DNA of 64,000 nucleotides from Halostagnicola sp. A56 (GTDB taxonomy: Archaea; Halobacteriota; Halobacteria; Halobacteriales; Natrialbaceae): assembly GCF_000691505.1 (NCBI RefSeq), contig NZ_JMIP02000018.1, positions 1 to 64,000 on the forward strand, read 5' to 3'. The notes beneath the pieces are model-generated. The model saw only the letters and a list, made by a program, of their open reading frames with translations, was not told the DNA's origin and ran no database searches. This document shows, in pieces, positions 45,896 to 49,424 of the stretch. Each line of letters starts with the position of its first letter. Position 1 is the stretch's first letter. Both the position numbers and the translations under genes were made by a program.

Positions 45896-46186
45896 CTATC
45901 CCTGAATAGCCCGGGGAGAGGGCCGAGGCCGATTCTCAGCGTCGAGCCGGCCATTGAGGTATTCCTGTCCGTTGCTGGTAATCTCGTACATGTTACTGCC
46001 CTCAAAAATTGGAGCAAGGAAACCCGCGTGAGAAAGCATTTGACACCGCTCTTTGACCCGCCCACGCGAAGCGTCGAATTTCATTACTCGAGACATGTGG
46101 CGCGGCGTCGACCAGGAATCTTCCGCAAGGTGTTCTAAGATCCGCTCATCCAGCGTACACATCCAGCGGGCAGGCTTTCGGCTCAT
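45896..46186 (-). CDS. Winged-helix repressor-like protein (phiH1-type)
   Basis: The 96-residue protein begins MSRKPARWMCTLDERILEHL, then STPRHMSRVMKFDASRGRVK and a wing MYEITSNGQEYLNG. The WM..DERILE..L start and C-terminal wing match the PhiH1 repressor group found in haloarchaeal viruses and elements. It probably controls element genes. Its ATG overlaps the TAA of the upstream repressor gene by one base (TAATG), so both are made together. Confidence 0.75.
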   Translation of the reverse strand: MSRKPARWMCTLDERILEHLAEDSWSTPRHMSRVMKFDASRGRVKERCQMLSHAGFLAPIFEGSNMYEITSNGQEYLNGRLDAENRPRPSPRAIQG

Positions 46187-46497
46187 TATGATTCAGAGGT
46201 TTCACTGGCGCTCGGACCACTGTTCGAGTTACCCTGATTAAGGAAAACTTCATTTTCAGCGTCGTACTCCTCATCAAGATAGGCTTTCCCCACGTCCGTA
46301 ATGACGTATGCACCATTTCCGATAGGCGTCAGTAATCCGTGTTCTGCAAGCTTCTTACATCGGCGAGAAACATGCGCGTTCGAGACTCGAATACTCTCAC
46401 TATCGGTGAGTTCGCCTACTGTGGCCCCCTCATTCTCACGAAGATACTCGAGGATGCGATCGTCCCATATTGTCATCCACGTTCCCGATTCTCTCAT
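46186..46497 (-). CDS. Winged-helix repressor (phiH1-type)
   Basis: The 103-residue protein has MTIWDDRILEYLRENEGATV, recognition-helix region RVSNAHVSRRCKKLAEHGLL and wing GNGAYVITDVGKAYLDEEYD, a clear PhiH1-like winged helix. A start at the internal Met8 (MTIWDD) is also plausible, since family members begin there. Divergent from the integrase operon, with a perfect palindrome between them that is a likely binding site. Ends in a polar tail (SNSGPSASETSES). Confidence 0.8.
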   Translation of the reverse strand: MRESGTWMTIWDDRILEYLRENEGATVGELTDSESIRVSNAHVSRRCKKLAEHGLLTPIGNGAYVITDVGKAYLDEEYDAENEVFLNQGNSNSGPSASETSES

Positions 46498-46576
46498 TAC
46501 ATTCTCTTAGGGAGACACTCACCTTTTTGTTCGGTTTTCTACCTAAACGAATCTATTATCCTGATTAGGAGTACCG

Positions 46577-46590
46577 TTACATATATGTAA
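46577..46590. promoter_or_regulatory. Perfect 14-base palindrome, operator and TATA candidate
   Basis: TTACATATATGTAA is fully self-complementary. Its central CATATATG could serve as a TATA box with transcription starting near 46608-46612, just where the structured leader begins. A winged-helix dimer binding here would block the operon. Placed between the repressor genes and the integrase operon. Confidence 0.55.
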
Positions 46591-46610
46591 TATCGGTTCT
46601 TTGTGCTGAG

Positions 46611-46765
46611 CACGGAGCTACCAACGCGGGTGAAGATGACTCTTGTTGGTATGTGAGACCGGGCGGCGTCTCAGCGCCGCCCAGAAGGTAGCTCCGGTGA
46701 TCAGGAATGAATCTCGGAACTTCCGTGGGGGCTGTACCCCACGCACGACAAGAAGCATCGCCCAC
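46611..46765 (+). ncRNA. Structured RNA or leader, resembling an IS200/IS605-type right end
   Basis: Perfect stems are visible: GGAGCTACC (46614-46622) with GGTAGCTCC (46687-46695); TACCAAC (46619-46625) with GTTGGTA (46645-46651); GGGCGGCG (46661-46668) with CGCCGCCC (46675-46682); CGTGGGG (46724-46730) with CCCCACG (46737-46743). The first two share TACC and exclude each other, and TGAGAC/GTCTCA (46654-46659/46668-46673) competes with the third. The string GCACGACAAGAAGC after the last hairpin resembles, from memory, the right end of haloarchaeal IS1341/TnpB elements, where the guide (omega) RNA is encoded. No tnpB is present. It may be an element scar now serving as the operon's leader. 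Confidence 0.5.
46696..46702 (+). promoter_or_regulatory. Strong ribosome-binding site of the zinc-ribbon gene
   Basis: GGTGATC matches seven bases of the complement to the 16S rRNA 3' end (GGATCACC) and lies four bases before the ATG at 46707. It directly abuts the right arm of the long leader stem, so folding could influence translation. Confidence 0.5.
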
Positions 46766-47303
46766 GAATAATTCTGACGCAACGCGAGCAACGTGCGTCT
46801 GCGGCGCTCGGGCAACCGGATACGACGCCCGGCTCGAGGCGGCAGTCTGTGGCCGCTGTGCGCGGCTCCGCTGTGACGGTGGCGGACAGAAGCAACTTCC
46901 GGAGCACGTCCTCGAGGCTACTTCTGACGACGTACTCGAGCAAGGCCGTGTGATGGCCCTCTACGAGTACGAGAAGAACCACATCTCGATCGAGCACGAG
47001 GAACGCGAGTGTCGCGTCTGCGAGGGCGAGACCTACCACCGAATCGAAACCGACGACTACCGTTCTCGGACAGCTTCGGTGTGTGGAACTTGCGGTGAGA
47101 CCACCGTGACCCTCACCGATGGCGGTTCCAACCTCTACACCTGTGACACGCCCCAGTGCGACGGGTGGAAAGAGGTCGTCACGCCGGACGGCTACGTTTG
47201 TCACGACTGCGCGGACAAACTCGAGGAGCAGTACCAGAACACAGGCCAAGACGCGAAGCTGCTCACTGACGGCGGCGTTCCAAACTCTGGTGGTGAGCCA
47301 TGA
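46707..47303 (+). CDS. Multi-zinc-ribbon element protein
   Basis: The 198-residue protein has several Cys pairs: ATCVCGARATGYD, AAVCGRCARLRCDG, RECRVCEGETYH, ASVCGTCGET, YTCDTPQCDGW and YVCHDCADK, enough for about three zinc sites, with a helical region between (LEATSDDVLEQGRVMALYEY). Its first 20-25 codons overlap the structured RNA, so the N-terminus may be derived from the element scar. First gene of the four-gene operon; its TGA overlaps the next ATG (ATGA). Probably binds nucleic acid; family unknown to me. Confidence 0.65.
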   Translation: MNLGTSVGAVPHARQEASPTNNSDATRATCVCGARATGYDARLEAAVCGRCARLRCDGGGQKQLPEHVLEATSDDVLEQGRVMALYEYEKNHISIEHEERECRVCEGETYHRIETDDYRSRTASVCGTCGETTVTLTDGGSNLYTCDTPQCDGWKEVVTPDGYVCHDCADKLEEQYQNTGQDAKLLTDGGVPNSGGEP

Positions 47304-47470
47304 GCAAACCGCAGAAGTTCTGGCTCGAGGGCGAGATTCAGTTTTCAAACCAAACCGATCCAGATGGTGCGTTCGATGCGCTCGCGGATGAACTCGACGA
47401 CAGCACCTTTCGGGCGGTCTACGACGCGACGAACGCCAAATACCTACTGCTCAGTGAGGTAGTCGAATGA
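47300..47470 (+). CDS. 56-residue element protein
   Basis: MSKPQKFWLEGEIQFSNQTD then FDALADELDDSTFRAVYDAT and KYLLLSEVVE. A predicted beta-alpha-beta mini-domain, acidic. Too small for confident assignment; it could be an accessory subunit of the methyltransferase-like protein that follows. Both ends overlap neighbours by ATGA, which supports that it is a real gene. Confidence 0.6.
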   Translation: MSKPQKFWLEGEIQFSNQTDPDGAFDALADELDDSTFRAVYDATNAKYLLLSEVVE

Positions 47471-48234
47471 CTGAGACCGAATCGAGGGCCCAAGATAGGG
47501 AAGTAGGCGGTCAATCTGTGAGCGATACAGAGCGAATTAGTCTCGATCTCTGTGCCGGTCTGGGGGGCTTCTCGTCTGCCTTTGAGGACGCCGAGAACTG
47601 GCGAGTTGTCACCGTTGATATAGAGGAGGAGTTTGACTCCGATATCTGCGCTGACGTGCTTGACCTCCGGCCGGCAGATCTGCCAGCCGCCGACGTCGTC
47701 CTCGCCAGTCCACCATGCACGACCTTCTCAAAGGCGTGCCCAGTCGAGAAGTACTGGATCCCGGGGACGAAGGAACCAGACCATCCGAAGACTCGGAAGC
47801 ACATCACGCTCACGCACCATGTTGTTGGGCTCATCAAGGCAATCGCGCCCGACTACTGGTTCCTCGAAAACCCGGTTGGTCGGATGCGTTGGATCCTCGG
47901 TCAGCCGGCTGGCACGGTGAGCTACTGCCAGTACGGAAAGGACGTGATGAAACCAACCGACTTGTGGGGCAACCATCCGCAGGGCTTCGAGTATCGGTGG
48001 TGCGGCTACGCCGACGACTGCCACAAGTCGAACACGCACGGCGGCTGTGCGAATACGGAAGATCCATATCCGCGTGACCCAGCGGAGAGGGCAAAGGTCC
48101 CATATGAACTGTCTGAGAGCATCCTTCAGGCCGTTGAGGGGCGGCAAGAACAGCAGACTCTATCAGCAGTCGTAGATGGGGGAAACGCCCGGTCAGTAGA
48201 TGCGAACACTGACCGAACAGGTGAGAACCGATGA
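47467..48234 (+). CDS. Cytosine-C5 DNA methyltransferase-like protein
   Basis: The 255-residue protein has the SAM-binding motif LDLCAGLGGFSSAF (residues 26-39), VTVDIEEEFDSDICADVLDL as the second motif, the PC motif LASPPCTTFSKA with Cys84 as nucleophile, and FLENPVGRM with Glu134. A short Cys/His region (YADDCHKSNTHGGC) follows. The large variable target-recognition domain of classical enzymes is reduced. No restriction gene is nearby, so it may protect or regulate the element, or be a modified-base enzyme. Overlaps both neighbours by four bases. Confidence 0.78.
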   Translation: MTETESRAQDREVGGQSVSDTERISLDLCAGLGGFSSAFEDAENWRVVTVDIEEEFDSDICADVLDLRPADLPAADVVLASPPCTTFSKACPVEKYWIPGTKEPDHPKTRKHITLTHHVVGLIKAIAPDYWFLENPVGRMRWILGQPAGTVSYCQYGKDVMKPTDLWGNHPQGFEYRWCGYADDCHKSNTHGGCANTEDPYPRDPAERAKVPYELSESILQAVEGRQEQQTLSAVVDGGNARSVDANTDRTGENR

Positions 48235-49238
48235 GCGACGATCTCGAGCCGCTCTCACCTCAGGAGGCCGTCGACCTCTACGTAGCCCACCGCGAACTCG
48301 AGGTGAGCGCAAAGACGCTCCAGAACCACGAGTATCGACTCAACGCGTTCGTGGAGTGGTGTAACGAGGTTGGGATCGACAACCTCAACGACCTCTCCGG
48401 GCGCGATCTTCACCGATACCGCGTCTGGCGACAGAAAGACGTCAATGTCGTCACCCTTCGCGGCCAGCTCGCAACACTGCGCGTGTTCCTCGAGTTCTGC
48501 GCGTCGATCGACGCCGTCGAGCCGGGAATGCGCGAACGCGTGAAGCTTCCCGATGTCGACCGAGCCGACGAAGCTCGAGACGTGATGCTCGACGAAGATC
48601 GTTCCCAAATGCTACTGAGTTACCTCGAGCGGTACAGCCGCGCGAGTCGGAGTCACGTTATCGTCGCGATTCTCTGGCACACGGGAATCCGTCTCGGCGG
48701 TCTTCGAGCGATCGATCTCGACGACTACGAACCGGACGAACAGTGCGTTTGGCTACGCCATCGTCCTGAATCCGAGACGCCACTGAAGAATCAAGGGCCC
48801 GCTGAGCGCCCCCTCGCGTTGGACGACTACTATACCGACGTGATCGACGAGTACATTCGATTTCACCGGCACGATGTCGTCGACGAGTACGGACGCGAAC
48901 CACTCGTAACGAGTGACCGAGGGCGGCTTAGTTCCGGTCAGATTCGGTCGGAGGTGTATCGACTGACACAGCCTTGTCTCTACAAGGACTGTCCGCACGA
49001 TCGCGACCCGGACGACTGCGAGGCTCGAGTCTACGGTCACTATTCAGAGTGTCCGAGTAGCCTCTCACCGCACACGATTCGGCGAGGTTCGATTACCTAC
49101 CAACTTCGCGAGGACATCCCCGAGGAGATCGTCAGTGATCGCTGTGACGTTTCCTCAGATATCCTCGAGCGACACTACGACCGACGAACAGACCGCGAAA
49201 AGATGGAACAGCGACGCGACTTCATCACCGATCTTTAA
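48231..49238 (+). CDS. Tyrosine recombinase (integrase)
   Basis: The 335-residue protein has an N-terminal SAM-like domain (about 10-100) and a catalytic domain with Arg154 (WHTGIRLGGLRAID), His281-x-x-Arg284 (SPHTIRRGSITY) and nucleophile Tyr316 (ILERHYDRRTDREK). An insert at residues about 249-275 (CLYKDCPHDRDPDDCEARVY) carries four cysteines that could bind zinc. It probably integrates the element at the tRNA-Ala gene 115 bases downstream. It is the last gene in the ATGA-linked operon, so its level is tied to that of the methyltransferase-like protein. Confidence 0.92.
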   Translation: MSDDLEPLSPQEAVDLYVAHRELEVSAKTLQNHEYRLNAFVEWCNEVGIDNLNDLSGRDLHRYRVWRQKDVNVVTLRGQLATLRVFLEFCASIDAVEPGMRERVKLPDVDRADEARDVMLDEDRSQMLLSYLERYSRASRSHVIVAILWHTGIRLGGLRAIDLDDYEPDEQCVWLRHRPESETPLKNQGPAERPLALDDYYTDVIDEYIRFHRHDVVDEYGREPLVTSDRGRLSSGQIRSEVYRLTQPCLYKDCPHDRDPDDCEARVYGHYSECPSSLSPHTIRRGSITYQLREDIPEEIVSDRCDVSSDILERHYDRRTDREKMEQRRDFITDL

Positions 49239-49352: not shown

Positions 49353-49424
49353 TGGACTCGCCGGGATTTGAACCCGGGGCCTCTCCCATGCCAAGGGAGT
49401 GATCTACCACTGATCTACGAGCCC
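49353..49424 (-). tRNA. tRNA-Ala (anticodon GGC)
   Basis: The 72-base sequence folds into a full cloverleaf: acceptor GGGCTCG with CGAGTCC, D stem GATC/GATC, anticodon stem CTCCC/GGGAG around TTGGCAT with anticodon GGC, T stem CCGGG/CCCGG around TTCAAAT, discriminator A. The acceptor has G3 opposite U70, the identity mark of alanine tRNA. Its 3' end faces the integrase, as in an attachment site. CCA is not encoded. Confidence 0.95.

Follow-up and report, generated by a model that had tools for sequence, protein, structure and literature searches.

The stretch of DNA analyzed here (the window) comprises 64,000 nucleotides of Halostagnicola sp. A56 (contig NZ_JMIP02000018.1, positions 1-64,000 of the forward strand). 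It carries an operon that ends in an integrase gene and is preceded by a structured leader. The features of this region are as follows.

45896-46186, minus strand: second winged-helix regulator (phrog_2440, 5.2e-27)
46186-46497, minus strand: divergent winged-helix regulator (phrog_2440, 3.9e-32)
46577-46590, plus strand: TATA palindrome TTACATATATGTAA, promoter and probable repressor operator, read from the sequence
46613-46622, plus strand: 5′ arm of P1, CGGAGCTACC, pairing with 46687-46696 (covariation)
46614-46622 with 46687-46695: core stem of P1, GGAGCTACC with GGTAGCTCC; 10 bp including C46613-G46696
46619-46651, plus strand: P2, a weak, optional helix of TACCAAC (46619-46625) with GTTGGTA (46645-46651) that uses the inner P1 arm
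46635-46643, plus strand: GAUGACUCU, conserved core of the P1-closed domain (weighted column conservation 0.70-0.97 across lineages)
46654-46659 with 46668-46673, plus strand: TGAGAC and GTCTCA, a sequence match in the window
46661-46682, plus strand: P3 hairpin GGGCGGCG-TCTCAG-CGCCGCCC (covariation, alignment-free hairpin count)
46687-46697, plus strand: 3′ arm of P1, GGTAGCTCCGG, the putative switching strand, which would pair with either the P1 5′ arm or P5
46696-46702, plus strand: GGTGATC, Shine-Dalgarno-like, not general among the leaders
46707, plus strand: ATG of ORF1
46707-47303, plus strand: ORF1, coding for a zinc-ribbon-like CxxC protein, with P5 and P4 in its first codons
46714-46724, plus strand: downstream arm of P5, TCGGAACTTCC, codons 3-6, mimicking the P1 5′ arm
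46724-46743, plus strand: P4 hairpin CGTGGGG-GCTGTA-CCCCACG, within ORF1
46746-46759, plus strand: P6 candidate CGACAAGAAGCATC, complement of leader positions 46635-46648, long only in the family of the window
47300-47470, plus strand: ORF2, 56 aa, ATGA overlap with ORF1
47467-48234, plus strand: C5 cytosine methyltransferase homologue, ATGA overlap (PF00145, 39.1 bits, cut-off 22)
48231-49238, plus strand: SNJ2-type tyrosine integrase, ATGA overlap (48.7% identity to that of SNJ2, 47.5% to that of HHPV4)
49353-49424, minus strand: tRNA-Ala(GGC), 3′ end toward the integrase, probable attachment gene

No Pfam family scored above its cut-off in ORF1, and no second copy of the tRNA-Ala 3′ end, as a left attachment repeat, was found within the window. 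The ATGA overlaps that join the genes of the operon would hand control at the leader on to the integrase. This gene context recurs in the homologous loci described below: a divergent regulator of a single winged-helix cluster was present in 93 of 99 loci and a downstream integrase, again of one cluster, in 89 of 99. From the leader AUG to the integrase the chain of ORFs was unbroken in 76 of these 89 loci, fused in 1 and broken in 12. Four-base overlaps were counted at 135 of 183 ORF junctions by a script that favored such overlaps. The first ORFs share conserved first 20-40 codons and then continue into differing bodies, which may be a CxxC protein, a PadR-like domain or an integrase, or may stop after about 30-50 codons. 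The first protein has a CxxC-CxxC pattern in 42 of 100 loci, and a short class (<60 aa) without it makes up 14 of 100.

The stems, GGTGATC, ATG and palindrome that the first-pass annotation had picked out are all present in the window at the positions listed above. A fold-energy comparison, which it had proposed, showed the window leader to be far more stable than its shuffles (minimum free energy −52.3 against −37.7 kcal/mol, sd 3.8; z −3.9), with 0 of 200 shuffles equally stable. The spacing of the leader is regular. A TATA-like palindrome is centered 30-31 nt 5′ of P1 in 60 of 100 loci, lies at different distances in 5 and was not matched by our pattern in 35. Archaeal transcription starts 26-27 nt past the TATA center, and from this spacing the transcript of the operon would begin about 3-4 nt 5′ of P1 and would carry the leader. 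Between the end of P1 and the ATG lie 9-16 nt in the 100 leaders, 11 being most frequent.

If the leader acts as RNA, its helices should be maintained by compensatory changes, a test set in advance by the first-pass annotation. We fetched 108 loci and aligned 100 leaders, 97 of them distinct, in an alignment termed A3; the 8 weakest loci (L119-L126) stand outside A3 and hence outside all counts. P1 and P3 both passed. Together they are paired in 97.6% of cells, with 14 of 17 pairs changed on both sides and 207 double-changed cells against 44.7 in shuffles; P3 taken separately is paired in 99.0% of cells, with both-side changes in 6 of 8 pairs. A3 had been fitted to P1 and P3, and we therefore added two looser tests. 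In the first, which is free of any structure, column pairs of the leader plus 84 nt of ungapped coding sequence were ranked by corrected mutual information over 98 of the 100 rows (effective number 54). Of the top ten pairs, four belong to P3, three to P1 and two to P4, and the remaining one closes the P3 loop. The ranking recovered neither P2 nor P5, the latter because its register varies. In the second, which is free of any alignment, a perfect hairpin of at least 7 bp, corresponding to P3, occurred in 83 of 97 leaders, with 18 distinct arms, against 2.5% of shuffles. The wobble cells of P1 are G-U in 78 cases and A-C in 5, an excess that points to the sense RNA. No such sense-strand excess was seen in P3 (G-U 1, A-C 8) or P4 (6 and 22), which counts against a switch. 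Besides the unpaired core, the loop of P3 is conserved by column. At the loop-closing columns 80 and 85 of A3 (window positions 46669 and 46674), C-A occurs in 68 of 98 rows and U-G in 24, an exchange expected of like-shaped wobble pairs. Judged by sequence comparison, it is nearly certain that the leader is a conserved cis-acting RNA.

This RNA extends into the first gene through two coding-region elements, P4 and P5, that were absent from the first-pass annotation. In all 100 loci, the best hairpin among the first 96 coding bases has its start between +15 and +20. When the register is fixed at 18-23/30-35, 58 of 92 distinct sequences can form all six pairs of P4, whereas 500 synonymous recodings gave 1.5 on average and never more than 6. 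In comparison with shuffles, the hairpin was found in 93 of 94 sequences against 14%. Covariation links codon 7 to codon 12, in the combinations GTG-CAC (41), ACG-CGC or CGT (17) and GCG-CGC or CGT (9). The first protein has an unusual N-terminus, V-G-x-x-P-H or T-G-x-x-P-R. Because P4 exceeds what recoding yields and its codons covary, this odd, conserved beginning of the peptide is, in part at least, an RNA signature.

The first-pass annotation had described a switch-like leader of the integrase operon just 3′ of the TATA palindrome, an idea that holds in kind, though not in its competing pairs or its ribosome-binding site. One proposed rivalry, TGAGAC with GTCTCA, was rejected: the P3 loop complements this segment in 1 of 100 leaders, that of the window itself, and the pairing looks like a chance match. 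The other, in which P1 and P2 compete for TACC, fared somewhat better. P2 is paired in 77.2% of cells, above the 37.8-49.9% of the nearest and best slid controls, and one column of the shared arm covaries with both partners, so that P2 may exist; it is nonetheless weakly supported, lying outside the top covarying pairs and predicted above 50% in 3 of 97 sequences. GGTGATC, taken to be a strong ribosome-binding site, is present in the window but in only 11 of 100 leaders. A Shine-Dalgarno core of at least 4 nt between P1 and the ATG is absent in 76 of 100, which rules out Shine-Dalgarno masking as a general mechanism.

A better-supported rival of the long stem, as far as sequence comparison can tell, is P5. 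The codons just 3′ of the AUG resemble the P1 5′ arm and complement the P1 3′ arm. Examples are GGUGGCUUCGC/GCGAAUCCACC (Haloarcula-type loci), GGGUUCGG/CCGAACCC (locus L080) and GUCGGUUCCAG/CUGGAACCAAC (locus L084). The complementarity score averaged 8.47 across 81 distinct pairs; exchanging arms between loci 300 times gave 6.97 (sd 0.14, maximum 7.48), and recoding synonymously 200 times gave 6.31 (maximum 6.60). The signal is limited to +3 to +20 (8.51; other intervals 4.9-6.8), and 69 of 79 loci score above their own mean with dissimilar loci. The complement of a locus’s own P1-arm core was found in 49 of 79 loci; 1000 shuffles gave 26.1 and at most 36. By arm type, TCCA is matched by TGGA in 4 of 4 cases and TTCG by CGAA in 12 of 18.

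Folding indicates that P1 and its rivals are nearly equal in predicted energy. When 45 nt of coding sequence were added to 13 hand-picked sequences, P1 was lost to a hairpin of arm and coding sequence in 7 and kept in 6, and across 93 sequences the energy cost of forcing P1 had a median of 0.2 kcal/mol and a mean of 1.8 kcal/mol. Several results count against a switch. The window fold with 45 nt of coding sequence keeps P1, and P5 in the window has 2 mismatches and one G-U in 11 positions. P5 beats P1 in stability in 13 of 79 loci, with mean duplex energies of −11.0 against −15.2 kcal/mol, and its excess of at least 7 contiguous pairs is small (29 of 79 loci against 16.2 expected). Forcing P1 raises the unpaired value of the AUG region from 0.51 to 0.59, under 1 M salt parameters that are not haloarchaeal.

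A further complementarity, P6, links leader positions 46635-46648 to 46746-46759, the codons of a conserved RQEAS peptide. In loci of the Natrialbaceae type it is strong, with a length of as much as 21 nt; in Haloarcula and others it is not. On sequence grounds P6 is a candidate pairing that would exclude P1.

To assess how widely the leader occurs, we began from blastn matches in 11 of 41 close genomes, the window’s own included, although the piece in genome G029 is evidently a chance match, as is a reverse match in G011. A covariance model of 11 sequences and of P1 and P3 only (R1) matched 44 of 125 genomes of the window’s family (E 0.001), with a single match better than 0.001 in the window’s own genome, and, in a sample of 392 genomes of the order, 83. 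A second model (R2), built from the 100 rows of A3, matched 90 of the 392 order genomes, in 39 of 95 genera (E 0.0001). In a draw from the phylum, whose share of genomes from outside the order is not given, the leader occurred in 15 of 294 genomes, all 15 of the window’s order. Searching phage and plasmid collections by blastn with the leader and early coding sequence returned no match, so that a covariance model was required there. In one genome (G004, contig C1) the module occurs twice, in near-identical copies about 22 kb apart (906616 and 928899; L012/L015 and L002/L048).

A related integrase (E 1e-40) is present in 115 of 125 family genomes against the 44 with a leader, a disparity that counts against the switch; either the model misses copies or other loci lack the element. 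Of the 25 full-length integrases from the family with at least 76% identity, 24 have a leader match just 5′. We sampled 20 integrase loci without a model match and found the divergent regulator, by profile, in 5, all of which have a P4-like hairpin after an ATG (chance, 28 of 825 ATGs). These data suggest that the unmatched loci are in part diverged leaders. The leader RNA is widespread and apparently undescribed: we found no description in the literature searched, including the accessible part of PMC7911831, and the primary SNJ2 integrase paper may mention it.

The integrase of the window belongs to a large family found in pleolipoviruses and proviruses. At 48.7% identity over 100% of the query it lies within the SNJ2 type, for which the accessible part of the review PMC8371274 sets the bar at 30% identity across 60% of the protein; more than 500 such integrases are reported in the portion of PMC5867852 available to us. 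The integrase modules of SNJ2, HHPV4, HRPV-9 and Halfgib1 are of this type, and in SNJ2 and HRPV-9, as in the window, a short operon with the integrase as its last gene runs divergently from a winged helix-turn-helix gene. The same part of PMC8371274 describes SNJ2 orf1-3 as a single operon whose transcription can begin at two alternative sites; a structured leader is not mentioned in the accessible parts of PMC8371274 and PMC5867852. Of eight viruses with a related integrase that we fetched, HHPV4 gave a clear model match (46.5 bits) and Halfgib1 a marginal one (E 0.044), while SNJ2, HRPV-9, Harhisp1, Humcor2, LSV-48N and HRTV-25 gave none. In HHPV4 (L190, 5653-6018) an annotated minus-strand ORF2 overlies the leader, and a plus-strand ORF from about 5801 is likely the gene at the leader. 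The predicted folds of SNJ2, HRPV-9, Harhisp1 and Humcor2 contain P1 and P3-like and P4-like hairpins, and it looks as if SNJ2 and its relatives carry a diverged form of the leader RNA. Their leaders differ in the position of the P1-arm copy, which lies directly 5′ of the AUG instead of in the codons. In nine such leaders (five viruses and four of the five regulator-bearing loci), with 3′ arms chosen by eye from the folds, this copy scored 9.4 against 6.9 in cross-type swaps.

By the Rfam scans, the RNA is not a member of a known riboswitch or leader class. Rfam 15 at the gathering threshold returned only an S15 leader and tRNA over the whole window; over 46500-46900 at E up to 10 there were three matches, all sub-threshold, and over ten relatives at E up to 0.1 none. 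The S15-Halobacteria leader (RF03143, 49610-49681, 74.4 bits) lies just past the tRNA-Ala. It is also a structured mRNA leader of haloarchaea, but it regulates ribosomal-protein genes and is unrelated to our RNA by Rfam scan. None of the operon genes here codes for a ribosomal protein, which sets the RNA apart from ribosomal-protein leaders. A hammerhead ribozyme and a kink-turn, weighed by eye from a GAUGA motif, were dropped. The closer likeness is to translational riboswitches, in which a closing helix surrounds a conserved domain and one arm of this helix also takes part in a rival pairing, by which the start region is masked. Here P1, P3 and the core make up an aptamer-like conserved domain closed by a helix, and, as read from sequence, an arm of that helix could enter the alternative, start-occluding pairing P5; the RNA differs in that the rival arm lies in coding sequence or abuts the AUG, and in having no Rfam match. 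To our knowledge, few archaeal cis-regulatory RNAs are known. The accessible part of PMC8241225 (2021) names the fluoride riboswitch of Thermococcus kodakarensis as the only experimentally determined natural archaeal one. It also describes a synthetic theophylline riboswitch in Haloferax volcanii, where an RNA-masked start codon likewise controls translation, although that RNA is designed and not natural.

Many haloarchaeal mobile elements thus appear to have an mRNA that starts with a conserved fold around the AUG, one that looks like a translation switch. Our favored reading, to which we give somewhat better than even chances on the sequence comparisons, is that the RNA switches between two states and in this way controls translation of the operon whose last gene is the integrase. 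It would start a few bases after the promoter and extend about 37 nt into the first gene. In the first state, P1 would close the domain, which includes the core GAUGACUCU, P3 and a GAA before the 3′ arm, and leave the AUG between P1 and P4. In the second, the P1 3′ arm would quit the 5′ arm and pair with its copy in codons 3-6, so that the AUG becomes enclosed by P5 and P4; leaders of the SNJ2-like group would use their copy just 5′ of the AUG. We infer that P1 marks the open state and P5 with P4 the closed one. A putative ligand (metabolite, ion or protein) bound to the core would stabilize P1 and open the AUG, and overlapping stop and start codons would carry the effect on to the integrase. 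A regulator acting at the TATA palindrome may add a transcriptional layer. We propose only tentatively that the RNA is a new riboswitch class of archaeal viruses and elements, or a protein-sensing equivalent, in which the aptamer closed by P1 would respond to a host signal, its 3′ arm moving to the start-codon copy of the 5′ arm, and a small molecule or ion would gate the integrase.

The same RNA could instead be the operator of an RNA-binding protein that directly blocks or assists the ribosome, with no exchange of P1 and P5, the binder being the operon’s own product, a regulator of the element or a host protein. The conserved unpaired core and P3 loop, and the C-A/U-G exchange that closes this loop, are as in protein-binding RNAs, and leaders of ribosomal proteins are the main predicted archaeal class in the accessible part of PMC7247131. 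An operator leaves the P1-arm copy beside the AUG unexplained, and variation of the first protein between loci speaks against own product as the binder; we consider this explanation unlikely.

We would give slightly less weight to a constitutive element of translation or stability, in which P1 and P4 keep open a landing strip for the ribosome on mRNAs that mostly have no Shine-Dalgarno sequence. The distances of 9-16 nt from P1 to the ATG and of +15 to +20 to P4 suit such a role, as the spacing from P1 to P4 is roughly one ribosome footprint, and so does the missing Shine-Dalgarno core in 76 of 100 leaders. It accounts for neither the P5 copy of the P1 arm nor the conserved core.

It is quite improbable that the repeats work as DNA, as an operator or a site of recombination or replication. 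The adjoining integrase operon, the lack of a G-U excess over A-C in P3 and P4 and the TATA palindrome, probably an operator, fit such sites, but the G-U excess of P1 (78 against 5 cells), the fixed distances to the promoter and start codon and the placement of P4 and P5 within codons do not. A chance fold, conceivable in a GC-rich genome, is negligible as an explanation: compensatory changes refute it, and the shuffle, recoding, covariation and hairpin tests all stand against it.

Accounts of how archaeal viruses control their integration have dealt with repressors and alternative transcription starts. Read as a translation switch, the leader would add to these a covarying RNA that is found across several haloarchaeal families, in the isolated virus HHPV4 and apparently in others, and a translational layer of the integration decision becomes testable in laboratory haloarchaea.
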